From Kiritimatiellaceae bacterium (lineage in GTDB: Bacteria; Verrucomicrobiota; Kiritimatiellia; Kiritimatiellales; Tichowtungiaceae), in NCBI GenBank assembly GCA_013141415.1, contig JABFQY010000003.1:1-64000 (forward strand): 64,000 nt of DNA. Direction: 5' to 3'. Position numbers and translations under genes: made by a program. The notes under the pieces are model-generated. The model had not been told where the DNA came from. It searched no databases and worked only from the letters and a program-made list of their open reading frames with translations. The number at the start of each line of letters is the position of its first letter. Within the stretch, counting starts at the first letter, position 1. This document shows positions 8,787 to 59,826 of this stretch, piece by piece.

Positions 8787-8866
8787 GATGGAGTGATGGA
8801 ATGATGGAGTAATGGAATTCTGCTTTTCCAAATACTCCAATACTCCAATACTCCAATTATTCCAAA
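8787..8866. repeat. Ten in-phase octamers forming an imperfect hairpin
   Basis: The comFC-accD gap is built from 8-bp units in constant phase: GATGGAGT and GATGGAAT on the left arm, CTCCAATA (three near-copies) on the right arm. The arms are roughly complementary (TGGAGT with ACTCCA), so the RNA can fold back. The last units run into the accD ribosome-binding site AAAGGA. Confidence 0.8.
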
Positions 8867-9792: not shown

Positions 9793-11050
9793 TTCTCTCT
9801 CGTCCCTGTTTGCGCGGACAGTGCACGGCATCCAGCCTGAGCTTGATGTGACGGTTGCGCTGCTTGAAAAGCTCGGCAATCCTCACAAGAGCCTGAAATG
9901 CATCCACGTCGCCGGAACCAACGGTAAAGGTTCGGTCTGCGCCATGATGGAATCGGTTCTGCGCGCTTCCGGATTTAAAACCGGACTCTACACCTCGCCG
10001 CATTTGTTCCGCTTCAACGAACGCTTCCGCGTCAACGGGCGTGAAATTCCCGATCCGGCTTTGGCTCAGCTTATTGCCGACGTCGAAGCCGCCGCGCAAA
10101 GCCTGACAACGCGCCCGGCCACTTTTTTTGAAATCTCCACTGCCATGGCGTTTGAATATTTTAAACGCGAAAAGGTGGACTATGCTGTCATCGAAACCGG
10201 TATGGGCGGACGCTGGGACGCCACCAATGTTATTCAGCCGCTTCTTTCTGTTATCACCCGTATTGATTTCGACCACGCCGAATATCTCGGAACCGAAATC
10301 GAAAAAATCGCCGGGGAAAAAGCCGGTATCATCAAATCCGGCGCGCCGGTGATCTGCGGCCCGATGCCGGTCGAGGCCGAAGCGGTTATCTATAAAGAAG
10401 CCAAAGAGAAAAAAGTTCCAATCCTTGGAAGCGACGAAGCGGTCTTTTTCCAAATTCTGGAAGCCCGCCGTGACGATCAGCTTCTACATATCGAAGCCAG
10501 CGGCCACGAATACCCGAACGTCCGCCTGCCGCTCGCCGGAAATTTTCAGATGGAAAACTGCGGCATCGCCGTCGCCGCGCTCGAAGATCTGGCCGACATT
10601 GAAGGCATCCGCCTTCAAATGAAACGGGGGCTCGAAGCCGTCAAATGGCCAGGCCGCTTTCAGCTTCTTCAACAGAAGCCGCCGGTGCTTTATGACGGCG
10701 CGCATAATGTCTGCGGTGCCCGTGCGCTGTTCCAAACTCTGGGTGAAATTTTTCCAGGTTTTGGAAACGGATTCTTTTTCGGCTTCATGAAGGATAAAGA
10801 CGTCGAAGGAATTCTGAAAACGCTCAAACCTGCCGTCGAAAAAGCCTGGGCATTTACATTACCCGGCGACCGCGCGATGCCTGCGGAGCAGATTGCCGCC
10901 ATCGGAACAAAAATCGGAATGGACATTCAGCCCGTCAGCGGCATACAACCGGCGATCGAGTGGCTGGACGCCGGTAAAAAGCGGCTCGTTTGTTTTACCG
11001 GTTCACTGTATCTTCCCGCAGAACTAAAAAAACATGGATTTTTCAAATGA
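9779..11050 (+). CDS. folC: Folylpolyglutamate synthase / dihydrofolate synthase
   Basis: A 423-residue Mur-ligase-family enzyme that adds glutamate to folate. The ATP P-loop GTNGKGS lies at about residues 45-51. The second-domain motif FDHAEYLGTEIEKIAGEKAG is conserved, and DGAHN begins the C-terminal domain. The start is uncertain: the TTG at 9779 gives MNIENSLSSLF, matching where homologues begin, but has no strong ribosome-binding site and lies inside a heptamer repeat. It overlaps murG by four bases (ATGA), implying translational coupling. Confidence 0.93.
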   Translation: MNIENSLSSLFARTVHGIQPELDVTVALLEKLGNPHKSLKCIHVAGTNGKGSVCAMMESVLRASGFKTGLYTSPHLFRFNERFRVNGREIPDPALAQLIADVEAAAQSLTTRPATFFEISTAMAFEYFKREKVDYAVIETGMGGRWDATNVIQPLLSVITRIDFDHAEYLGTEIEKIAGEKAGIIKSGAPVICGPMPVEAEAVIYKEAKEKKVPILGSDEAVFFQILEARRDDQLLHIEASGHEYPNVRLPLAGNFQMENCGIAVAALEDLADIEGIRLQMKRGLEAVKWPGRFQLLQQKPPVLYDGAHNVCGARALFQTLGEIFPGFGNGFFFGFMKDKDVEGILKTLKPAVEKAWAFTLPGDRAMPAEQIAAIGTKIGMDIQPVSGIQPAIEWLDAGKKRLVCFTGSLYLPAELKKHGFFK

Positions 11051-12120
11051 GTGAAAAACTGCATATCGCCATCGCCTGCGGTGGAACCGGCGGACATATT
11101 TTCCCCGGACTCGCCACCGCCCGTGTTCTGAGAGAGCGCGGACACCACGTCACCCTCTGGCTCGCCGGTAAAGACGGCGAAGACACCGCCGTCAAAGGCT
11201 GGGAAGGGCGGATCGTTACGATTCCGTCGGAAGGATTTCAGTTTGGCGCTTTCCGGTCGGTGCTGACCGCGTTGCGGATTGCCGGCGCGGTGCTCCGCTG
11301 CTGGTTCATCATGCTGCGTCACCGGCCCGATGTCGTGCTGGCCATGGGCAGTTACGCTTCCATCGGCCCGTGTCTGGCGGCCCGTCTGCATGGAATTCCG
11401 TACATTCTGCACGAAGCCAACGCCATACCGGGCCGGGCGGTCCGGCTACTCGCCCCGAAGGCGCGTGCCATTGCCATTTGTTTTGAGGAAACCCGCTTTC
11501 ATCTTAAAGGAATGAATGCCGTTTCTGCCGGAATGCCGCTGAGACCGGAGATTCAGGGGACAGGAGTCAGGAATCAGGAGTCAGGATTCAATCTCCTCGT
11601 CATGGGTGGATCACTCGGCGCTCATGCCATCAACGAAATGGTTTCTGAGGCCGTTTGCGCGCTGGCCGACAGCCGGATCAGCGTGACGCATTTAACCGGC
11701 GTGGCGGACGAGCAGAAAATTGCCGGGCGCTACCGCGCCGCCGGGGTGAATGCCGAAGTGCGCGCTTTCACTCAGGATATGGTGTCGCTTTATGAAAAAG
11801 CCGCGCTGGCCATCTGCCGCTCCGGCGCGTCCACCTGCGCCGAGCTCGGCGTGTTTGCTTTACCGGCGCTGCTGATTCCGTATCCGCATGCCGCCAGCGA
11901 CCACCAGACCGCCAATGCCCGCGCCCTTGAAAAATTCGGCGCGGCGGATGTGATTCAGCAGAGCGTCATGACGGTCGAGTGGCTCAAAGGCTATCTGGCC
12001 GAACAGATCAGCGATTCGTCCCGGCTTGAAAAAATGCGTACGCGTTCCGCTGCACGCAATGTTCCGTTGAACGCAGCCGCAATCCTTGCCGGGGTGGTGG
12101 AAGAATGCGCCCGCAAATAG
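11047..12120 (+). CDS. murG: UDP-N-acetylglucosamine transferase for lipid II
   Basis: A 357-residue GT28 enzyme that makes lipid II from lipid I at the inner face of the cytoplasmic membrane. The donor/acceptor motifs are present: GGTGGHIFPGLA near the N-terminus, GSYAS at about residue 102, MGGSLGAHAIN opening the C-terminal domain, and RSGASTCAEL in the UDP-GlcNAc site. Between the domains, residues encoded by 11554-11588 (about IQGTGVRNQESG) come from a heptamer repeat. The linker position suggests the insertion is tolerated. The start overlaps the folC stop and murC starts 16 bases before its end. Confidence 0.96.
   Translation: MSEKLHIAIACGGTGGHIFPGLATARVLRERGHHVTLWLAGKDGEDTAVKGWEGRIVTIPSEGFQFGAFRSVLTALRIAGAVLRCWFIMLRHRPDVVLAMGSYASIGPCLAARLHGIPYILHEANAIPGRAVRLLAPKARAIAICFEETRFHLKGMNAVSAGMPLRPEIQGTGVRNQESGFNLLVMGGSLGAHAINEMVSEAVCALADSRISVTHLTGVADEQKIAGRYRAAGVNAEVRAFTQDMVSLYEKAALAICRSGASTCAELGVFALPALLIPYPHAASDHQTANARALEKFGAADVIQQSVMTVEWLKGYLAEQISDSSRLEKMRTRSAARNVPLNAAAILAGVVEECARK
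11554..11588. repeat. Five heptamers inside murG
   Basis: CAGGGGA, CAGGAGT, CAGGAAT, CAGGAGT, CAGGATT: a 35-bp tract of period seven within the murG reading frame, encoding the linker between the two Rossmann domains. The unit CAGGAGT is the complement of the ACTCCTG units found in the intergenic tract at 31621-31690. Confidence 0.85.
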
Positions 12121-13379
12121 ACAACCTGCTCTCAACCTCGCGCCGCATTCACATGATCGGCATCGGCGGAATCGGTATGGCGGGACTTGCTCTGCTGCTT
12201 AACGAGCGCGGGCACCGTGTCAGCGGTTGCGATGAACAGGAAAACCGGCAGACCGACTGGCTGCGCGGGAAAGGAATTTCCGTTTTGATCGGTCATGACC
12301 GGTCGCATCTGGACGGCGCCGAATGGATTATCCGTACCACCGCCGTGCCGGACGATCATCCCGAAGTGGCGAACGCGACCGTGCCGGTCAGCCGTCGCGG
12401 GGAAGTGCTACCTGCGCTGTTGCGCGACCGGTTCACCATTGCGGTCAGCGGAACCCACGGCAAAACGACGACGACGTCAATGATCGCGCAGATTCTCGGT
12501 TGCGGCTACTGCATCGGCGGCGAGGTGCCCGGTTTTGACGGCGTTGCCAAAGACGGCGAAATCATGGTGGTCGAAGCTGACGAAAGCGACGGCACGATCG
12601 TCAATTATCATCCCGACATCGCGGTTATCACGAACATCGAATACGACCACATGGAGCATCACGCCAGTGTCGAAGCGTTTGAGGCGTGCTTCAAAACCTT
12701 CATCGCCAACACAAAGCAGAAGGTTGTTTATTGCGCCGAAGATCCGGCTGCTGCGAGGCTTTGTGCCGGAAACCCGAAAGCGATTCCTTATGGCGTGGCG
12801 AGTGGCGAGTGGCGAGTGGCGTTACCGGGCCGGCATAATCGGCTGAATGCTTGCGCCGCGCTGGAAGTGTCTAAACAATGGAAAACCGGAACGGAAATTT
12901 TCCAAGCGTTGGAAGCCATCAGACCCGTTCGGCGCAGGTTTGAAAAAGTTTTTCAGGGCGAGTACACGGTCATTTCCGACTACGCGCACCATCCGACGGA
13001 AATCCGTACGCTGGTTCAGACGGTGCTGGAAACGCTCAAACCGAAACGGCTGCTTGGCGTTTTTCAGCCGCATCGCTACACGCGCACCAAGGCGCTGATG
13101 GACGATTTTCCGCCCGCGTTTCAGGGGTTGGATAAACTGTGGCTGCTGCCGGTTTATGCCGCATCGGAAAAACCGCTGGCGGGCGGAACGACGGCTGACC
13201 TTTTCAAAAAATTTCCGGCGTCCGGAAAGCCGGAAGTAAAAAGTTTGCCCGCATTGGAAAAAGCATGGCAGGAAATTCAATGCGAACTACGTGCTGGAGA
13301 TGTGTTACTAATCATTGGTGCGGGCGATGTGGATAAAATTATGGAGTGCGGCGGGAAACGAAATGCCACGCCGCTTTAG
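12105..13379 (+). CDS. murC: UDP-N-acetylmuramate--L-alanine ligase
   Basis: A 424-residue ligase that attaches the first amino acid of the peptidoglycan stem. It has IGIGGIGMAGLA near the N-terminus, the P-loop GTHGKTTTT, a YDHMEHH segment, GRHNRLNA and the C-terminal AHHPTEI. It is shorter than the usual 450-490 residues. Between IPYG and LPGRHN only nine residues (VASGEWRVA) remain, where homologues carry a longer stretch, and these are encoded by a heptamer tract. The last residues (MECGGKRNATPL) are encoded by a palindromic repeat. The motifs suggest an active enzyme, but both alterations merit a check. Confidence 0.93.
   Translation: MRPQIDNLLSTSRRIHMIGIGGIGMAGLALLLNERGHRVSGCDEQENRQTDWLRGKGISVLIGHDRSHLDGAEWIIRTTAVPDDHPEVANATVPVSRRGEVLPALLRDRFTIAVSGTHGKTTTTSMIAQILGCGYCIGGEVPGFDGVAKDGEIMVVEADESDGTIVNYHPDIAVITNIEYDHMEHHASVEAFEACFKTFIANTKQKVVYCAEDPAAARLCAGNPKAIPYGVASGEWRVALPGRHNRLNACAALEVSKQWKTGTEIFQALEAIRPVRRRFEKVFQGEYTVISDYAHHPTEIRTLVQTVLETLKPKRLLGVFQPHRYTRTKALMDDFPPAFQGLDKLWLLPVYAASEKPLAGGTTADLFKKFPASGKPEVKSLPALEKAWQEIQCELRAGDVLLIIGAGDVDKIMECGGKRNATPL
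12795..12822. repeat. Four heptamers inside murC
   Basis: GTGGCGA three times, then GTGGCGT: a perfect 28-bp tandem tract of period seven in the murC frame, encoding most of VASGEWRVA. It sits just before the LPGRHN motif of the central domain. Confidence 0.9.
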
Positions 13380-31552: not shown

Positions 31553-31620
31553 TTCTGTAAACAGGGTGATTCCGGTGTAAGAAAAGTTTGAATGTTGGGC
31601 TGGCCTCCGTTCTCCGACTT

Positions 31621-31690
31621 CTGACCCCTGACTCCTGCTCACTGACCCCTGACTCCTGCTCACTGACTCCTGTTCACTGACTCCTGATTA
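31621..31690. repeat. Ten in-phase heptamers
   Basis: CTGACCC, CTGACTC, CTGCTCA repeated twice, then CTGACTC, CTGTTCA, CTGACTC, CTGATTA: an exact period of seven over 70 bases. There is also a 21-bp super-period in the first two blocks. The complement of these units appears within murG at 11554-11588. Confidence 0.9.
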
Positions 31691-31874
31691 TCGCTTGGCT
31701 TGAAAGATTTGTCTGATAAGCTCGCGCCTTATTGAAGGGGCATTTTTTACGAGATTGTTTGGTGGGTTCTAAAATTGCCACTTTTTTGTCCTGTATTCGC
31801 GGAGTTTTTTTTCGTCTGTCGGTTCAGGTTATCGGTTGATCCATTTTTTTCTGACCTCTTCTCTTTTCTTTTCC

Positions 31875-33326
31875 CTATGTCGGGAGATTTTCCTCTGTTA
31901 AAATAAATTTTTCTCCGAACAACTTACGATATGTTTCCAAAAACTCTTTAGATTCTCGGAAAAATTTAAAAAGTGGCCATGTTGAATAGTCTTCGCGGTT
32001 CACTGGCCCTTTAGCTCCCATACTCTCCATAAGCGAAGATGCGTGATCAAATTTATCTTTAAGCACAGCCACCGCCATTCGGAGTTCTGGGCTACAGGAG
32101 CTCCAATCCTCAGAGTCTAGTGTCTCCTGACATTTTTTTTCATCGCCGGAAAATTTATGAGCAATGCATAAATTTATTAGATTAACGCGACGTATTTGAT
32201 CGGAGGATACATTTTTCAATGTGTCTGTCGAAAAAAGTAAAATTATTTTTGCTAAGTCGTAACGCTCCTCTGAAAGGAGGTCAAAGCCGGTACTGTGAAG
32301 AGCATCATCAGCCTCGGCCATGTCGTCAGGTTGTAGTTTTCTCCAAAGCACATGGCCGAGTTTTATGCCGATTTCTAAGAAGCAATCTGATGTTTTGCTG
32401 AAATAGTCGGGGGTCACATGTAGCTGGTCACCAACTTTTATGTTTTTATCCAATTCGACTCCGTGCTGACGGCAGACACGCAAATATTGAGTCGAAACAA
32501 TGCCATCACAGTGAACAAATAAGTTTCGTCTTTCAGTGATCTCAACGAATTGTGGCCAAATTTTTAATCCTTTTCTCAGCGGAAGAGCAAAGCGTTCTTC
32601 CATCCACTTAAAATGGTCGCTATGGCTGTCTCGAAGCACTGACTCGACTTCTTTTTCTATTAAGGAGTCGCGGGCAGCTTCAAGTGACCCAAAGGATGCG
32701 AGGTCAGTGTAAGTTAATGTTTTTTGTGACGATGCCAAAATATCGGGCTTTACTGAAAATGCTACACGAAGGAGTCGGCCAAGATAGGCGTCATATTTGT
32801 GGACCAACGCACATAGAAATATTGGAGGGATGTTGAATACTGCAAGCGATGCAGATGTAATTTTTTTTATTTTTTTAGAGAACTGGTGAAAATCTGCAGG
32901 CTTGATTTCAAAAGCTTCGGTTCCGTCTTCAGTTGTTCTCTGGACGCTCCTTTTTTTAATGAATGAATCCATTTCTTCTGTTGTTTTTTTGCAGGAGTCG
33001 CCCATTGCCTGCATCGTTGGCCCGAGTGCTTTAGATAAGCTCTCAATGTGAGAAACAAAACTGTCAATTTCGTCTTTGAATACTGGTTTCTTTTGGACGG
33101 GCTTCTCTTGTCTCGTTCTAGGTTTTTTAGTCGCCGACTTTTTTGATTCTATTGTGATGCTGGATGCTTGTTTCTTTTGGACGGGCTTCTCTTGTCTCGT
33201 TCTAGGTTTTTTGGTCGCCAGCTTTTTTGATTCAATTGTGGTGCTGGATGCTTGTTTATTATTCAAGCGCTTAGTGGGCAGAGATTTCTTTTTCGGTGTA
33301 GCTTTTTTTATTTGCTTAGTTGGCAT
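31875..33326 (-). CDS. HEPN-like protein with basic repeated N-terminal tail
   Basis: A 483-residue protein I do not recognise by name. The first about 85 residues are Lys/Thr-rich and contain two copies of a 28-residue unit (ATKKPRTRQEKPVQKK in each). A globular part follows, with RRNLFVHCDGIVSTQYL at about residue 285: the RNLFVH pattern fits the Rx4H motif of HEPN RNase-type domains. The remainder is helical. The start at 33326 has AGGAG six bases upstream. The gene is AT-richer than its neighbours and stands alone among repeats, suggesting transfer. A defence or toxin-like RNase role is possible but only inferred. Confidence 0.75.
   Translation of the reverse strand: MPTKQIKKATPKKKSLPTKRLNNKQASSTTIESKKLATKKPRTRQEKPVQKKQASSITIESKKSATKKPRTRQEKPVQKKPVFKDEIDSFVSHIESLSKALGPTMQAMGDSCKKTTEEMDSFIKKRSVQRTTEDGTEAFEIKPADFHQFSKKIKKITSASLAVFNIPPIFLCALVHKYDAYLGRLLRVAFSVKPDILASSQKTLTYTDLASFGSLEAARDSLIEKEVESVLRDSHSDHFKWMEERFALPLRKGLKIWPQFVEITERRNLFVHCDGIVSTQYLRVCRQHGVELDKNIKVGDQLHVTPDYFSKTSDCFLEIGIKLGHVLWRKLQPDDMAEADDALHSTGFDLLSEERYDLAKIILLFSTDTLKNVSSDQIRRVNLINLCIAHKFSGDEKKCQETLDSEDWSSCSPELRMAVAVLKDKFDHASSLMESMGAKGPVNREDYSTWPLFKFFRESKEFLETYRKLFGEKFILTEENLPT
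33087..33254. repeat. Two tandem 84-bp copies within the HEPN-like gene
   Basis: GGACGGGCTTCTCTTGTCTC at 33095 recurs at 33179, and homology extends over about 84 bases on each side of the junction. This is 28 codons, so the frame is kept. It encodes the duplicated basic unit of the N-terminal tail. Confidence 0.9.
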
Positions 33327-34421: not shown

Positions 34422-34967
34422 TGCCAACCAACGGAATGAGTATTTTTTGACGCTTTGCTTCTTTTCGAAAATACGAAAAGCACGTTCGGAATACCTCAGG
34501 TCACCACCCATTCACTCCGTTCATTAGAGCAAACAGCCGAGGAAGGCAGAGACCTGAGGCCAAAGGCCGAAAGAGGCTGGCCTGCCGCAGGAAGGCCGGC
34601 AATGACGAAAGGAATGGCAACTTCCGGCAATAAACGGAACAGATTCGGAATAGAGGTCTCAGGTGAAAACGAGCTTTCATTTGAGACCTCTGTTCCGAAT
34701 CAAGCCCTGTGATGACAGGGCTACCCCGAAACTCCGGGGTGCCGTTTATTCTAAAATATTGCCACTCTCTACTCCTCTGACTTCCTCTAGCGCAGCGGGT
34801 GGTAAAATCTTCTCATCCGTGTTTTGCCACTTCGTTGCTGTCGCACTGGCTCCAGCCTGTCTCGCTTTGCTCGGCGCCGTGTAATCCGTGGTAAAAAACT
34901 CTTCCAGTATTCCGCGATCGAGGATCGCAGTTGCAATACTCCCACACTCCAATACTCCACCACTCCC
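34422..34967. other. Intergenic stretch with nested palindromes
   Basis: No supported gene between the VF530 remnant and nrdB. It holds several inverted repeats, the largest at 34629-34750, short GGCCTGCCGCAGGAAGGCCGG-like palindromes near 34577-34600, and an octamer tract that runs into the nrdB stop codon. Confidence 0.65.
34629..34750. repeat. Nested inverted repeats
   Basis: An outer pair AATAAACGG/CCGTTTATT (34629-34637 with 34742-34750) encloses a 20-bp hairpin arm pair at 34642-34661 and 34682-34701 (GATTCGGAATAGAGGTCTCA against its complement with a single G-T). A third hairpin AGCCCTG/CAGGGCT lies at about 34703-34721. The whole looks like one structured mobile or dispersed palindromic unit. 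Confidence 0.7.
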
Positions 34968-34969
34968 TT
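34938..34969. repeat. Octamer tract ending in the nrdB stop codon
   Basis: ACTCCCAC, ACTCCAAT, ACTCCACC, ACTCCCTT in exact phase of eight. The last unit supplies two bases of the nrdB stop codon at 34968-34970 on the minus strand. The unit matches the CTCCAATA octamers before accD. Confidence 0.85.
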
Positions 34970-35927
34970 ACTTGAATATATCCTGCCAGTTTCCCGTCGT
35001 TGACGCCTTGGCATATTCGGTGGAGCGGTTTTCAAAGAAGTTGGTGTGTTCGACGCCGTTGAGCATGTAGTCAAGCCACGGAAGCGGATTCTCCGGCACG
35101 GTGTAGATGCTTTTCATGCCGATGCCGATCAGACGGCGGTTGGCGATGTAGCGGATGTAGGCTTTCACTTCGTCGGCTGTGAGCCCTTCGACGGAGCCCA
35201 GCTCGAAGGCGAGGTCGATGAAGCGGTCTTCCAGTTCCACGGAGCGTTCGGCGGCGCAGTAGATTTCGTATTTCAGTTTGTCGGTCCAGAGCTCTGGATG
35301 CTCTTTGATGAACGTTTTGAAAAGCAGCGCCATCGATTCGACGTGCAGGCTTTCGTCGCGGATGCTCCAGGTGACGATCTGGCCCATCCCTTTCATTTTG
35401 TTGAAGCGCGGGAAGTTCATCAGGATGGCGAAGCTGCTGAAAAGCTGAATGCCTTCGGTGAAGGCGCTGTAAACCGCCATGGTTTTCGCCATATCGAACG
35501 GCGTTTCCATGTTGAAGTTGAGCAGGTATTCATGCTTTTCCGCCATCGCGGCGATTTCCATGAAAACGGTGTACTCATCGTCGCCGAGGCCGAGCGTTTC
35601 CAGCAGTAGCGAATAGGCGTCCTGATGAACGGCTTCCATGGCGGCGAAGGCGCTGAGCATCATGCGGACTTCCGGCACCTTGAAGGTCGGCAGGAAAAGG
35701 GTGGAGTAACCGCCTGCGACATCGACGTCGGCCTGCGTGAAAAATTTAAAAATATTCAGCAGAAGGTTTTTGTCCTTCTGCGAAATATTCTCGTTAAAAT
35801 CTTTCAGGTCGTCGGCCAGATTAATCTCACTCGGCATCCAATGCATCTGTTGTTGCATCTTGTAGGCTTCAAACGCCCAGTCGTACTCAAACGGTTTGTA
35901 ATAAGTTCTCTCTTCTAAAAGCGGCAT
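34968..35927 (-). CDS. nrdB: Class I ribonucleotide reductase small subunit
   Basis: A 319-residue ferritin-like radical protein. The metal and tyrosyl-radical spacing is canonical: EAVHQDAY has Glu, His and Tyr at positions 1, 4 and 8. AFTEGIQLF and SIRDESLHVESM provide the second metal site. Helix FFTQADVDVAGG probably gives the first Asp. It works with NrdA, coded 134 bases upstream on the same strand, to make deoxynucleotides. Length is typical for the shorter bacterial NrdB type. Confidence 0.96.
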   Translation of the reverse strand: MPLLEERTYYKPFEYDWAFEAYKMQQQMHWMPSEINLADDLKDFNENISQKDKNLLLNIFKFFTQADVDVAGGYSTLFLPTFKVPEVRMMLSAFAAMEAVHQDAYSLLLETLGLGDDEYTVFMEIAAMAEKHEYLLNFNMETPFDMAKTMAVYSAFTEGIQLFSSFAILMNFPRFNKMKGMGQIVTWSIRDESLHVESMALLFKTFIKEHPELWTDKLKYEIYCAAERSVELEDRFIDLAFELGSVEGLTADEVKAYIRYIANRRLIGIGMKSIYTVPENPLPWLDYMLNGVEHTNFFENRSTEYAKASTTGNWQDIFK

Positions 35928-55300: not shown

Positions 55301-56320
55301 TTAACGCCTTGTTTCTTCCTGTTTTCCTTCCAGCCAGAATAGAGGAACCGCCGCCTTTTCGCCCAGCTTAAAAGAGAAGATACAGGAGATTTTACTCTGA
55401 ATCCCGCCGACCTCTCCGATGGCGGTGATCGAAACATATTCCGGCTGAACGGTAAAAATACCGCCGTGTCCCAGCGCGGCCAGATCGGCCTGAGTGATTC
55501 CATCGTCCGCCGTGCCTTCTTTGCCGTCCGGGCCGAGGCGCATTTCCATGATGGCATCAATCGTGTCATCGGGAATACTGAGACTGTTGAGTACTTCACG
55601 GCTGGCGCTGTTCGGGTTGATTTTTCCGCTGCCCCAGGTTGTGAGCTGGCTGGCAATGCCGGTGATCGGCTCGTCGGTTTTTTCGCCGTCCGGCGTGCCG
55701 TAAAGAACCTCTTCGCCCCAGTTTTTAATCAACAGTAATTCGTCCACGGTATCCACCGGCGCATTCTTGCATTCATAGCCGCGTTTTTTATAAAACGGAT
55801 CGTCCGACTCTGCGCCGTTGAGTGTGTGCAGATCATCTGGGTCTTGCCAGTCGGCGAGACAGGAGAGCATAGCATCCCAGCGGGTATTCGGAATCCCGGC
55901 CTGCTCGAACAACATTCGCCAGTCTTCGGGCTTCAGCTTGCTGATGTTGCGGCGGCCTTCTTCGTAATCAATGTGCAGCGTCACTTTGCCGTCACCAAAA
56001 TTTTCGCTGAAGTTGACCGGAACGCCGGCGGCAATTTTAACCGCCTCAGTCATATACGGATCGTCGTAAACGGTCTTTTCGCCGGTCGTGCTTTTTTCTT
56101 CCTGCACCGCAAGCATAGATCTGGCCAGCTCTACGCCAGCCAGCGCCAGCTGATCCGCTTTAAATCGCTGGCGCTGTAACGTGATCATCCTGGCTTCCAG
56201 CCGCATTTCAAAAGCAAACATGCTGACAATCAGTGAAATGATGATGAGAATCCACAGCACCACCACCAGCGCCGAACCGCGCTTCATTTCAGATTTATGA
56301 TTTCCGATTGCCGATTGCAT
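55301..56320 (-). CDS. gspK: Type II secretion minor pseudopilin GspK
   Basis: A 339-residue GspK, the large tip pseudopilin. After a short basic leader (MQSAIGNHKSEMKRG) comes the hydrophobic helix (SALVVVLWILIIISLIVSMF) and the big globular domain with an inserted helix-hairpin region (INPNSASREVLNSLSIPDDT). The Glu of the normal pseudopilin +5 site is absent, as is usual for GspK. The leader is coded by heptamers at 56285-56319. An internal Met (MKRGSALVV) is an alternative start. Confidence 0.88.
   Translation of the reverse strand: MQSAIGNHKSEMKRGSALVVVLWILIIISLIVSMFAFEMRLEARMITLQRQRFKADQLALAGVELARSMLAVQEEKSTTGEKTVYDDPYMTEAVKIAAGVPVNFSENFGDGKVTLHIDYEEGRRNISKLKPEDWRMLFEQAGIPNTRWDAMLSCLADWQDPDDLHTLNGAESDDPFYKKRGYECKNAPVDTVDELLLIKNWGEEVLYGTPDGEKTDEPITGIASQLTTWGSGKINPNSASREVLNSLSIPDDTIDAIMEMRLGPDGKEGTADDGITQADLAALGHGGIFTVQPEYVSITAIGEVGGIQSKISCIFSFKLGEKAAVPLFWLEGKQEETRR
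56285..56319. repeat. Heptamer tract coding the GspK leader
   Basis: CATTTCA, GATTTAT, GATTTCC, GATTGCC, GATTGCA in phase of seven, covering both possible start codons and the leader peptide of gspK on the minus strand. Confidence 0.85.
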
Positions 56321-56323
56321 AAT

Positions 56324-57094
56324 TTACCGCGCTTCCGAAACATCGTTGGTGACGGGCGGGCCGAGCGGGATTTCGAGAAGCTGGCGGAATTTTACCGGGT
56401 CAGAATCTTTTTTTGCCGGTTCGGCATAGAGCGTAATTTCAACCAGTCCCGGAATCGCATTGCTGTATTCCCAGCGGTCCGTCCAGCCTTCCTGGCCTTC
56501 TTTGGTGTCATATACTTTACAGCTCAGCCCTTTGATGTTTTCGCTGACGAACCAGTGTTTCTTTTCCACTTTTTCTTCATCGGCGAGATAGGGCCAGGCC
56601 GTGACGACCAATCCTTCGACCCCGTCTTCATCTTCGCCGGCGCCGACTTCGATGCGGTGCCGTCCGCGTGCATAGGCATCGCCGGGCGGAATAAACGCAC
56701 TACTGTCCGTTACCCAGCTGATGGAGTGTTCGCCTTCGCCCGCCGGATTGTCGATGATCCGGAAAGCGTATTTCTCCGGTGAATTACTTGAAAAAGCCAT
56801 TGAACGGAGCGAGGCGGTCAACTGACCGAGTACAAAATCGCCGTGATGTGCTTTATCCATCACCGTCCGGGCACCGGACCAAGCCTTCGTCACGGACGAA
56901 AAAAGCTGGCCCGCCACGGTCAGGGCAATCGCGAGGATCACGATGGCGATCATGACTTCAAGAAGGGTGAACCCGCAGCACCGCTTTGGAGTGCGGCGGG
57001 AAACGAAGTGCCACGCCGCTTTTTCACCGGCAGCACCGAGCGAAAGCGCAGTCGTGCCTTCGGCTTGCCTGCGCACTCCAGAAGGATATTTCAC
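56324..57094 (-). CDS. gspJ: Type II secretion minor pseudopilin GspJ
   Basis: A 256-residue pseudopilin. The prepilin peptidase motif is CCG then FTLLEVMIA, with Glu +5, followed by the hydrophobic helix IVILAIALTVAGQLF and a globular domain. The leader is about 41 residues, far longer than the usual 5-10, and residues about 5-35 (SGVRRQAEGTTALSLG...) are coded by a palindromic repeat at 56988-57079. The GTG start overlaps the gspI stop (GTGA). Confidence 0.88.
   Translation of the reverse strand: MKYPSGVRRQAEGTTALSLGAAGEKAAWHFVSRRTPKRCCGFTLLEVMIAIVILAIALTVAGQLFSSVTKAWSGARTVMDKAHHGDFVLGQLTASLRSMAFSSNSPEKYAFRIIDNPAGEGEHSISWVTDSSAFIPPGDAYARGRHRIEVGAGEDEDGVEGLVVTAWPYLADEEKVEKKHWFVSENIKGLSCKVYDTKEGQEGWTDRWEYSNAIPGLVEITLYAEPAKKDSDPVKFRQLLEIPLGPPVTNDVSEAR
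56988..57079. repeat. Long palindrome coding the GspJ leader
   Basis: GGAGTGCG (56988-56995) and CGCACTCC (57072-57079) are exact inverted ends of a 92-bp unit. The first 35 bases equal those of the element at 13343 in murC with one base change. Read on the plus strand it would give ECGGKRSATPL, on the minus strand it gives the GspJ leader. Confidence 0.88.
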
Positions 57095-57585
57095 TTTTCG
57101 TCCTCCGGCGGGATATAGAACCAGGTTACGGTTTCTTCAAAGCTGTCACGTCCGCGGTCAGACCAGCTGACACGGGTGCGGACGGTGTATAATCCCTTGC
57201 GGTTTTCACCTTCCGGCACCGCAATCTCGCGCTCCCAGCGGTACCCGTTTCCATGATCAAACGTTCCGGACTGAACTCCGGCGTCAACTTTTGATCGCGT
57301 CAGCGGATGTTCCGCGCCGACCTGCTGAATAAGACGCTGTGCGGTGCTGTAGCGCTGCGACTTGGTGATAATGGCCAGACAGCGCGCCGTCGCCAGCAAC
57401 AGCACACCGGAACCGATGCCGAGGATTACCACAGCCAGCATGACTTCGATCAGCGTCAGTCCGCTGGAAAATTTTTGATTTTTGATTTTTGATTTTTGAT
57501 TTCTGGCAGGAGCTTTTCCAAATACCGTCAAAGTGTATCTCTTTTTCAAATCAGCAATCGACAATCTGAAATCACAAATACTCAC
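57091..57585 (-). CDS. gspI: Type II secretion minor pseudopilin GspI
   Basis: A 164-residue pseudopilin with the motif SSG then LTLIEVMLAVV (Glu +5). The leader is about 42 residues and Lys/Gln/Ile/Asn-rich (ARNQKSKIKNQKFSSG), coded by heptamer tracts at 57471-57505 and 57547-57581. The globular part ends FYIPPEDEK. The GTG start overlaps the gspH stop by four bases. Confidence 0.86.
   Translation of the reverse strand: MSICDFRLSIADLKKRYTLTVFGKAPARNQKSKIKNQKFSSGLTLIEVMLAVVILGIGSGVLLLATARCLAIITKSQRYSTAQRLIQQVGAEHPLTRSKVDAGVQSGTFDHGNGYRWEREIAVPEGENRKGLYTVRTRVSWSDRGRDSFEETVTWFYIPPEDEK
57471..57505. repeat. Perfect heptamers in the gspI leader
   Basis: ATTTTTG four times, then ATTTCTG, in phase of seven; 35 bp inside the leader of gspI. 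On the coding strand they give the NQKSKIKNQK type of peptide. A second degenerate tract (CAAATCA, GCAATCG, ACAATCT, GAAATCA, CAAATAC) lies at 57547-57581. Confidence 0.9.
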
Positions 57586-58085
57586 CGTCCTTCCTCCACG
57601 ACGGTTACTTTTCCGGAGATTGGATTGCAGACAACCGTTGAGCGCCGGTCGTTGCCGGTGCTGAATGTTACCTTGAATCCATCATTCATACCGGCGGCGT
57701 AAAATTGCACGTCGCGGTTTCCTGCGGAATCCCGATCTGTTCCGGCAAGATTTTCGAACGAGCTGATCTCAATGTCGTCCGGCAGTTTGCGGGAAGCGTC
57801 GGGGCTGGCGCTATTGGTTCCGCACACCAGAGTCAGCCGGTTTGTTTCAAAACGGAACGTGCAGGTTTCCTGCTTCAGAATCGACAGGCTCCGCGCGTAG
57901 CGTGCCATTCGAACCGTTGAACGGGTTGCATCGGTCATTTGCGCGGACTTAAAAGTTCCCTTGAACTTCGGAACCACCACTCCGGCAGCGATCAGAATAA
58001 TCACCACCACCAGCATCACTTCAATCAACGTGAAACCATTGCCGATTGATGATTGCCGATTGATGATTGTCGAATTGCGCATCAT
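57582..58085 (-). CDS. gspH: Type II secretion minor pseudopilin GspH
   Basis: A 167-residue pseudopilin: leader MMRNSTIINRQSSIGNG, then FTLIEVMLVVVIILIAAGVV with Glu +5, and a GspH-like beta domain (ETCTFRFETNRLTLVCG). The leader is coded by heptamers at 58037-58078. The gspI start overlaps its stop. Confidence 0.87.
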   Translation of the reverse strand: MMRNSTIINRQSSIGNGFTLIEVMLVVVIILIAAGVVVPKFKGTFKSAQMTDATRSTVRMARYARSLSILKQETCTFRFETNRLTLVCGTNSASPDASRKLPDDIEISSFENLAGTDRDSAGNRDVQFYAAGMNDGFKVTFSTGNDRRSTVVCNPISGKVTVVEEGR

Positions 58086-58136
58086 GGTTTTCAGGCGATC
58101 TCCAATCTGAAATCATCAATCGAAAATCTAAAATTC
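58037..58136. repeat. Heptamer tracts in the gspH leader and the gspH-gspG gap
   Basis: Two tracts of period seven. 58037-58078: CATTGCC, GATTGAT, GATTGCC, GATTGAT, GATTGTC, GAATTGC. 58095-58136: GCGATCT, CCAATCT, GAAATCA, TCAATCG, AAAATCT, AAAATTC. The second lies between gspG and gspH and is the reverse orientation of the first. Confidence 0.85.
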
Positions 58137-58137
58137 T

Positions 58138-58536
58138 TCACTCCCAGTTATTGAACTCTTTGCCTTCCGGCGATTTGCAGGAGAGATCGAAACCGGTGCC
58201 GTGCGAGCCGGGTTTGGCGTAAACGAACGGTTGCTTCCAAGGGTCGTTGAGCTCGCTGGGTTTGATGTACGGGCCGTTGCCGTCTTTTTGGACGGTCAGG
58301 TCGGTCAGACTGTCCGGCAGGCGCAGGTTATCCATTTCATAACTCTGCACCGCGGCTTCGATGGCTTTCAGGTTTGCTCTGGCGGCAACGTCGTTAGCCT
58401 TACCGACTTTGCCGGTAATTTTCGGAACGGCGATACCAACAATGATGCCGATAATGACGATCACGAGCATGATTTCGATCAGGGTGAACCCGCTCTTTGA
58501 TTTCCGATTGGCGATTGCTGATTTTAGATTTCTCAT
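58138..58536 (-). CDS. gspG: Type II secretion major pseudopilin GspG
   Basis: A 132-residue major pseudopilin with leader MRNLKSAIANRKSKSG, then FTLIEIMLVIVIIGIIVGIA (Glu +5), a GspG globular domain and the calcium-loop region (PSELNDPWKQPFVY, GFDLSCKSPEGKEFNNWE). Pseudopilins made from it push substrates through GspD. The start is the ATG at 58536 with GAAGGAGG upstream; an earlier Met lacks a ribosome-binding site. Confidence 0.93.
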   Translation of the reverse strand: MRNLKSAIANRKSKSGFTLIEIMLVIVIIGIIVGIAVPKITGKVGKANDVAARANLKAIEAAVQSYEMDNLRLPDSLTDLTVQKDGNGPYIKPSELNDPWKQPFVYAKPGSHGTGFDLSCKSPEGKEFNNWE

Positions 58537-58582
58537 TCTGCCTCCTTCTGAATTCAACATTCCTTGTTCGATATTCGATATT
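58499..58582. repeat. Twelve in-phase heptamers spanning the gspG start
   Basis: GATTTCC, GATTGGC, GATTGCT, GATTTTA, GATTTCT, CATTCTG, CCTCCTT, CTGAATT, CAACATT, CCTTGTT, CGATATT, CGATATT: 84 bp in constant phase. The unit CATTCTG holds the start codon and CCTCCTT the ribosome-binding site of gspG on the minus strand. The outer part matches the tract between nrdA and nrdB. Confidence 0.88.
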
Positions 58583-58584
58583 TT

Positions 58585-59826
58585 TTAAACACCTAAGCCG
58601 CTGGTCAAATTGAACACCGCCATCAGCATACTGATGGCAACAAATCCGATAATGATGGCGATGCCGAGAATCAGCAACGGTTCCATCACCGTGGTCAGAA
58701 CCTTAATACTGAAATCAAGTTCACTGTCGTAACGCCGCGCGATGTTTTTGAGCGCGCCGGGCAGGTCGCCGGTTTCTTCGCCGACGGCCAGCATGTCGGT
58801 GAGCAGTTCCGGGAAAATTTTTCCGGCGGCCAGCGGACCGGCAATGCTGGAACCATCGGTGACGCGGGTGCGGGCGGCGGCAATTTCTTTGGCGATCACA
58901 TCGTTGCCGACGGTTTCTTCGGCAATCGTCAGCGCTTTCAGAATCGGTACGCCGTTGCGAATGAGCGTTTCCAGTGTCCGGGCAAAATGGGCGAACGCAT
59001 TGGCGTTGATGATCTGGCGGATGACCGGCCATTTGAGCTGGCGCGTATGCCACCAGAACCGGCCTGCCGGAGTGATGATCCATTTGCGCAGCGAAATTAT
59101 TCCGGCGGCCGACAGGATCAAAATCAGCCAGCCGTATTTAATGAGCCCGTTACTGAACGCCATTAAGATACGGGTGGGCAGGGGCAGGGTGCCGCCCAGT
59201 TCGTCAAAGATCGGTGCAAAGCGCGGGACAATGAAAACCATCAGACCAACCACTGAGATAAGGCCGATGGTCAGCACGATGGCCGGATAGATCATCGCGG
59301 TGATGACTTTGCCCCGCGCTTCCTGTACCCGCTCATAGTGATGACAAAGTCCTTCAAGCGCTTCGGCCAGTGCACCGGAAGCTTCGCCGGCGCGCACCAT
59401 GCTGATGTAAAGTTGCGGAAAGGTTTCGGGATAGATGCGGAGCGCATCGGAGAGGGCACTGCCCTGAACCACTTCGTCGCGCAGGCGGCGGATAATCTGC
59501 GCTTTGCCGTCTTCACCTTTGCGTTGCGCCAGCGTATGGAGCGCCCGGCCGAGGGTCATGCCGGACGAGAGCAGATCGGCCATTTCGCGCGAGAAAAGCA
59601 GCATATCGCGGGCGCCCATTTTGGTTTTTTTGCTGAGACCGGTTTCAAACGTAAACCGCTTTTTGATCGGGCTGGAGGCAGATTTTGAGGCCGTCTGGTC
59701 GAGTGAAAGCGGGGTGTGGCCTGCCTGTTGAAGCATCATCAGGGCGGCACGGCGGTCTGCGGCCTCCAAGGTACCGTCCACCCGTTTACCGTCGGCGCTG
59801 CGTGCGATATATTTGAAAGCAGGCAT
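58585..59826 (-). CDS. gspF: Type II secretion inner-membrane protein GspF
   Basis: A 413-residue platform protein with two GspF repeats, each with an helical cytoplasmic part (MLLFSREMADLLSSGMTLGRAL; FARTLETLIRNGVPILKAL) and a membrane segment. Three helices are clear: VITAMIYPAIVLTIGLISVV, a central LILILSAAGIISL and ILGIAIIIGFVAISMLMAVF. It is the first gene of the operon. Confidence 0.94.
   Translation of the reverse strand: MPAFKYIARSADGKRVDGTLEAADRRAALMMLQQAGHTPLSLDQTASKSASSPIKKRFTFETGLSKKTKMGARDMLLFSREMADLLSSGMTLGRALHTLAQRKGEDGKAQIIRRLRDEVVQGSALSDALRIYPETFPQLYISMVRAGEASGALAEALEGLCHHYERVQEARGKVITAMIYPAIVLTIGLISVVGLMVFIVPRFAPIFDELGGTLPLPTRILMAFSNGLIKYGWLILILSAAGIISLRKWIITPAGRFWWHTRQLKWPVIRQIINANAFAHFARTLETLIRNGVPILKALTIAEETVGNDVIAKEIAAARTRVTDGSSIAGPLAAGKIFPELLTDMLAVGEETGDLPGALKNIARRYDSELDFSIKVLTTVMEPLLILGIAIIIGFVAISMLMAVFNLTSGLGV

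Follow-up and report, generated by a model that had tools for sequence, protein, structure and literature searches.

A stretch of 64,000 nucleotides from contig C3 of a Kiritimatiellaceae bacterium (hereafter the window) contains a type II secretion system (T2SS)-type gene cluster, gspF to gspK, in which the DNA encoding pseudopilin leaders keeps a period of seven. We consider it probable, at about 0.7, that this period-7 DNA consists of short elements built of degenerate units, one- or two-armed, which are often gained, lost or swapped in the genus alongside 8-mer and palindromic elements. At the same sites sister species carry different families or none, and the elements are read in frame. 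The repeats often make up a single arm or the pair of arms of an inverted element, and their sites are also used by 8-mers and long palindromes.

The periodicity was measured against 200 third-order Markov shuffles, with segments scored at 15/21 or higher. The window holds nine lag-7 segments versus 0.6 expected (shuffle maximum 4), and positions 56001-59000 hold five versus 0.025 expected. An original prediction, made from the sequence alone, had claimed a strict period of seven for named gsp segments, and all of these show the lag-7 excess, with an identity of 96% in the best and 56-75% in the others; lags 5, 6, 8 and 9 give 6-56%. The 2.2 Mb genome (7 contigs) contains 27 matches to the pattern of three GATTKNN units plus GATT and none to its reversed control, so that the shuffles and the reversed pattern together rule out chance or low complexity. 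Seven of these 27 matches, corresponding to six arrays, fall in the gsp cluster, where six (GATTNNN)n arrays are packed into 2.3 kb of gspG-K. An artefact of a single assembly is also ruled out, since independently named metagenome genomes show the same features. In a sample of the phylum, at least one array of four AATCNNN units was present in 69 of 195 genomes, with a reversed control that was zero or low in most of them and high in a few.

The genes of the locus are T2SS-type according to Pfam (secretin, T2SSF, T2SSG, T2SSK_1st, and the prepilin N-methylation motif N_methyl in all four of gspG, gspH, gspI and gspJ), and the leaders would be removed by prepilin peptidase. Four leaders are built of heptamers, with (GATTNNN)n on the plus strand and AATC units on the coding strand, and these units produce NQKSKIK-type and SAIGNRQ-type peptides. 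All genes named here lie on the minus strand; a slash marks the cleavage site. The gene gspF (58585-59826; T2SSF 1.6e-57) served as anchor for locating the operon in relatives. The major pseudopilin gene gspG (58138-58536; T2SSG 2.9e-15) has the leader MRNLKSAIANRKSKSG/FTLIE, encoded by a single-armed array (58499-58530, plus strand), and likely starts at the ATG at 58536, behind GGAGG. The prediction had extended the leader repeats to 58582, but the short TTCGATA-type 7-mers in the gap between gspF and gspG (58560-58582, plus strand) are upstream of this likely start and therefore not part of the leader. The gspH-like gene (57582-58085; N_methyl 4.7e-05, and a TIGR01708 gspH match of 1.2e-09 that is below the cut-off of that model) has the leader MMRNSTIINRQSSIGNG/FTLIE, encoded by the array at 58037-58078 (plus strand). 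The partner of this array, a second arm between the gspG stop and the gspH start (58097-58131, minus strand), is untranslated; the prediction had overlooked it, while the segments that it did list are real.

The gspI-like gene (57091-57585; N_methyl 5.2e-06) has a GTG start that overlaps the gspH stop and a long leader, MSICDFRLSIADLKK...NQKSKIKNQKFSSG/LTLIE, that contains both arms of one pair on opposite strands. The arm next to the cleavage site is a (GATTTTT)n array (57471-57505, plus strand), which is perfect over 57471-57502. The second arm, a (GATTNNN)n array (57547-57581, minus strand), encodes ICDFRLSIAD right after the gspI start, and a 41 bp spacer (57506-57546) separates the two. 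The long leader of the gspJ-like gene (56324-57094; N_methyl 1.7e-09) is built not of heptamers but of an inverted-repeat element, GGAGTGC...GCACTCC, that fills it (56988-57079; hairpin z -2.3), and a related element was found in the gspI leader of relative G010. Finally, the N-terminus of the gspK-like gene (55301-56320; T2SSK_1st 2e-08), MQSAIGNHKSEMKRG/SALVV, includes an array (56285-56319, plus strand; the coding strand reads AATC) that sits between two possible ATG starts at 56320 and 56287. The gspK gene of G005 has an orthologous array of equal length (45 nt from stop to cleavage site).

The turnover of these sequences was followed in 13 genomes of the genus. Genomes of relatives are mostly drafts, and the named relatives found via aconitase are Verrucomicrobiota metagenome-assembled genomes, several labelled Pontiellaceae or Kiritimatiellales; genes outside the tested proteins were called by open frame and codon score. 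Throughout, p-values count orthologous sites as independent unless stated, and hairpins are predictions. With the leader region defined as upstream stop to cleavage site and period segments scored at 14/21 or higher, a lag-7 segment is present in 22 and a lag-8 segment in 13 of the 52 leader regions, compared with 0 and 2 of 56 mature pseudopilin parts; long leaders that lack 7- or 8-mer arrays hold palindromic elements. Leader length and content vary while the mature pseudopilin is conserved, and sister species have other repeat families, other palindromes or short repeat-free leaders at the same sites. As predicted, leaders without repeats are shorter: the gspJ stop-to-cleavage distance is 8, 8, 14 and 14 nt in four species without repeats and 89-134 nt in eight species with them, and for gspI it is 29 nt in two species and 94-236 nt in 11. 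The frame is conserved (12/12 congruent modulo 3 for gspJ, 11/13 in one residue class for gspI), and the inserts are therefore translated. Wrong start codons or untranslated arrays are ruled out for gspI and gspJ because one frame is kept from a start that overlaps the upstream stop; this reading holds true for the TTCGATA pair and the upstream gspH arm. On the GspF tree the repeat family at gspH is unclustered, with at least 9 changes versus a shuffled mean of 10.1. 

The leader and junction regions of gspG-K are a strong hotspot. Over the 13 genomes they hold 37 7- or 8-mer arrays in 5.9 kb, versus 6 detections in 85 kb of the remainder of the loci (of these 6, two are just N runs and a third is the gspK leader of G010), a density about 100 times higher. 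In this genome, surveyed by a 400-kb sample and by arrays found by pattern, 1 of 133 other co-directional junctions in the sample has an array. Separately, longer interspersed elements that recur in different proteins or species of the genus are found in two gspI leaders (L082 and L089) and in the helicase (L119 and, in this genome, L003); they encode peptides of the RRRGFQPR...TRLEASST and SLYSESxCEDTRSRxREARPT types.

The anatomy of the element was derived from 86 arrays of eight to thirteen genus genomes. The unit has a constant AATC/GATT core and three near-random spacer bases; read from AATC these are mostly purine, any base, and A or C, with GGC, GGA, ATC and GAA as the main triplets and GGG rare. 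The outer end is exactly NNNAAT in 50/86 arrays, where random truncation would give an estimated one in seven. In 27/85 cases an AATC array has a GATT array no more than 160 bp to its left, and the opposite order never occurs (0/85); most pairs are counted from both ends, so that distinct two-armed elements are fewer than 27. The fixed order therefore defines a layout of (GATTNNN)n, spacer and (NNNAATC)n, which with its outer ends reads ATTNNN(GATTNNN)n, a spacer of 8-68 bp, and (NNNAATC)nNNNAAT. Adjacent spacer triplets are identical at 0.40/0.40/0.56, versus 0.39/0.32/0.45 expected for random draws, and the unevenness between phases also holds in arrays detected without the pattern (combined p 6e-12). 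Between the arms, spacer triplets are no more complementary than in arms swapped between elements (p = 0.96, 0.71), which rules out that the arms are maintained by base pairing. The arrays thus consist of 7-bp units with a conserved core and variable positions, not of tandem identical units that diverge evenly over positions, and are not ordinary microsatellites.

Facing arms were also seen outside the gsp locus. In the window, a two-armed 8-mer element (8787-8857; GATGGAGT... and three copies of AATACTCC) separates a phosphoribosyltransferase-like gene from an accD-like gene and has the same facing layout at period 8. Two-armed GATT elements occur at matching junctions of different species between two kinase-like genes and before a waaA-like gene (L023/L281 and L004/L277/L290), and these junctions keep one family across species, unlike gspH.

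The original prediction placed the repeats at permissive coding sites of one operon. Leaders are one such permissive site, but the process is genome-wide, and arrays also fill internal loops of unrelated enzymes: they were found inside a glycosyltransferase, an AddA/UvrD-like helicase, a GDP-fucose synthase, an FAD oxidoreductase, an aconitase and an rRNA methyltransferase. Two further proteins, UppS and a member of the U32 family, carry them at the N-terminus. In aconitase, the loop from CVAV to PDTLVGTDSH is 6-7 residues long in outgroups and in the sister species G004, whereas in this genome and the other sister species it comprises 14-35 heptamer-coded residues (SGVRGQESGIDNRQSPI in this genome, TAERQKSKVKSQKSG... 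in G005, DRGQESGVSQSEIGNQQSKI in G007 and SSELRVSSSELGVSSSEGSGSQSSIINHQSAIL in G012) next to a compared flanking stretch that is 81-86% identical. Each of these inserts is written by a different heptamer set. The helicase, FAD oxidoreductase, methyltransferase and fucose synthase show a similar pattern of presence and absence among orthologues. 

Altogether 24/86 arrays are internal to genes, and many more are at N-termini. The gene-internal arrays are read in the AATC sense in 22/24 cases, where stop codons alone predict 59% (p = 4e-4, in a set that includes orthologous sites and has a smaller effective number). In the AATC sense most frames are free of stop codons, and the encoded peptides are basic and hydrophilic (grand average of hydropathy -0.86, charge +0.11 per residue), as opposed to +0.46 and -0.11 for the opposite sense. 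This bias fits with a filter that removes harmful insertions but keeps hydrophilic loops and basic leaders.

These observations can be combined in a scheme in which elements would arrive as whole units and purifying selection would clear those that harm proteins. Pseudopilin leaders may retain them because prepilin peptidase removes that part, and an extra factor beyond leader tolerance, such as a local hotspot or a role at the RNA level, would concentrate them at gspG-K. Tolerance of cleaved leaders to insertion had been proposed originally; the variable length and content agree with it, but as the sole cause it is ruled out because ordinary short leaders (such as MKKTNKKG and MKKA), without arrays, are found in the genome's remaining prepilin genes near C5:239-251 kb. 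These array-free leaders weigh against the proposed gain and loss of elements, and so do several other points. An element is present at gspH in 12/13 species, which is more constant than pure junk predicts, and orthologous sites of related species are not fully independent data. We found no target-site duplication or mobilising gene tied to the elements. Y1_Tnp genes are present in 14/14 genomes, but two-armed arrays are absent at the 20 Y1 transposase loci that were scanned, and where anything flanks these genes it is a different palindrome. A Y1 transposase of the repetitive extragenic palindromic (REP)-associated (RAYT) type was therefore rejected as mobiliser. In two species the palindrome GGGGTCAGGCCTTGACTTTTGC... 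occurs on both sides of Y1 transposase genes (813-862 and 1905-1956 in L333; 812-862 and 1904-1962 in L344), and palindrome and Y1 genes form a separate REP-like system.

Polymerase slippage, by which ordinary microsatellites would grow in DNA that tolerates them, could explain perfect arrays such as 57471-57502. Heptamer repeats are over-represented in many bacteria, and a slippage mechanism related to the footprint of the polymerase has been put forward (PMC4692102). Such slippage predicts neither facing arms in a fixed order nor swaps of whole families, and adjacent spacer triplets that differ almost like random draws beside an invariant core do not fit with it, which makes it an improbable origin. 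The leaders could instead be conserved functional peptides, with the DNA repeats as a by-product of a preference for Lys, Asn, Gln and Ser. Basic leaders are usual in prepilins, and in all four heptamer leaders of this genome the cleavage-proximal arm reads in the basic sense. However, leaders range from a few to more than 40 residues and cannot be aligned between sister species, and these arrays are also found in enzyme loops and in arms that are not translated. No leader peptides are conserved across the genus, let alone identical in relatives, which rules out a conserved leader protein and leaves hardly any likelihood for the peptide explanation as a whole.

The main rival explanation is that the two-armed elements at the gspG-gspH, gspH-gspI and gspI-gspJ junctions are kept as conserved RNA hairpins, of which the structure is constrained and the sequence free; such hairpins could possibly shield the gspG transcript from 3' decay or set the level of minor pseudopilins. 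Predicted hairpins after gspG, gspH and gspI are indeed strong, with mean z of -3.0 (10/13 below -2), -4.0 (7/13) and -2.1 (8/12), unlike the gspF-gspG junction (+0.9, 0/13) and mature windows (-0.1, 3/56); among other co-directional junctions of the 400-kb sample, z is below -2 in 17/133. Very different repeat families yield one layout at the gsp junctions, and in E. coli operons protective hairpins after the first gene, often inside the next coding region, provide a precedent (PMC5927463). On the other hand, facing arrays automatically give strong hairpins, the swapped arms described above are equally complementary, gspJ lacks an element in 4/12 species, and most junctions examined in the sister family are without a strong hairpin. 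We therefore regard a hairpin role as rather doubtful. Equally tentative is the broader proposal that facing-arm elements of period 7 or 8 form a sequence-independent chromosomal class whose members are rewritten or exchanged time and again at fixed sites, and that the gspG-gspH-gspI-gspJ layout is conserved as an RNA hairpin setting pseudopilin stoichiometry while the family turns over almost freely. For gain, loss and swapping of degenerate elements, which we prefer, known repeat systems offer several points of comparison.

The closest are the heptamer repeats GGGAATC and GGGGA(C/T)T of Xanthomonas and Nostoc, which are G-rich, G-quadruplex-forming and in Xanthomonas 89-93% intergenic (PMC4692102). 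They share with our arrays the 7-bp units with constant and variable positions (AATC plus NNN fits AATCGGG, GATT plus NNN fits GATTGGG), close opposite-strand pairs (here 27/85, in one order only) and a gene neighbourhood that sister species share while the repeat sequence varies (PMC4692102). In contrast to those repeats, our units do not carry tracts of three or four G, one site may be used by any of several unrelated 7- and 8-mer families, and many of the copies are read in frame within genes. The TAACTGA repeats of Beggiatoaceae are heptamers near start codons in operons; as far as the parts of that study consulted here describe them, they are one fixed heptamer, mainly untranslated upstream of starts, with no description of facing arms or family swaps (PMC4679880). 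Rickettsia palindromic elements are short, in frame within unrelated metabolic genes, about 150 bp long and with a conserved peptide each (reviewed in PMC10969869). Our elements are likewise in frame in unrelated genes and absent from the same place in relatives, but instead of a conserved element or peptide of that kind they have degenerate arms of period 7 or 8 and several families per site. REP sequences and REPINs are also dispersed short inverted repeats (PMC3116915, PMC3733652), whereas the units described here are tandem and degenerate and show no association with the genus's Y1 transposases. Borg tandem repeats are in-frame, fast-evolving repeats that are translated into extra protein stretches and have hotspots, as here, but they become perfect amino-acid repeats, while ours are chromosomal and have degenerate units of 7 or 8 bp (PMC9879509). 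In the open-access literature we found no description of in-frame, two-armed 7- or 8-mer elements in pseudopilin leaders. Heptamer repeats are known elsewhere, mostly intergenic, and the novelty is the in-frame, two-armed, family-swapping form.

The window contains further repeats. Other heptamer families lie within cell-wall enzymes: the open frame of a MurG-like gene (10990-12120) contains TCAGGAN heptamers (11550-11596), and a MurC-like gene (12105-13379) contains GTGGCGA heptamers (12786-12828), both genes being named from reading the sequence. CTGACTC/CTGACCC heptamers occur at 31600-31700 in a stretch without a long frame, an 84-bp tandem duplication lies within a long open frame (33086-33257), and an 8-mer array (34934-34966) is immediately upstream of a minus-strand gene (34968-35927).

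The abundance of heptamer repeats in bacteria is long known, with no agreed origin or role, and our data argue against simple slippage as the chief reason for the way the units are built. The fixed arm order, the preferred outer end and the family turnover at orthologous sites provide a comparative system in which insertion, rewriting and hairpin selection can be tested as origins, in a little-known group, the Kiritimatiellales. A caution for annotation is that bacterial protein stretches like NQKSKIK, SAIGNRQ or RSQESGV may stem from repeat DNA instead of marking a domain. In turn, the in-frame arrays naturally document the enzyme loops and leader peptides in which additional residues are tolerated.

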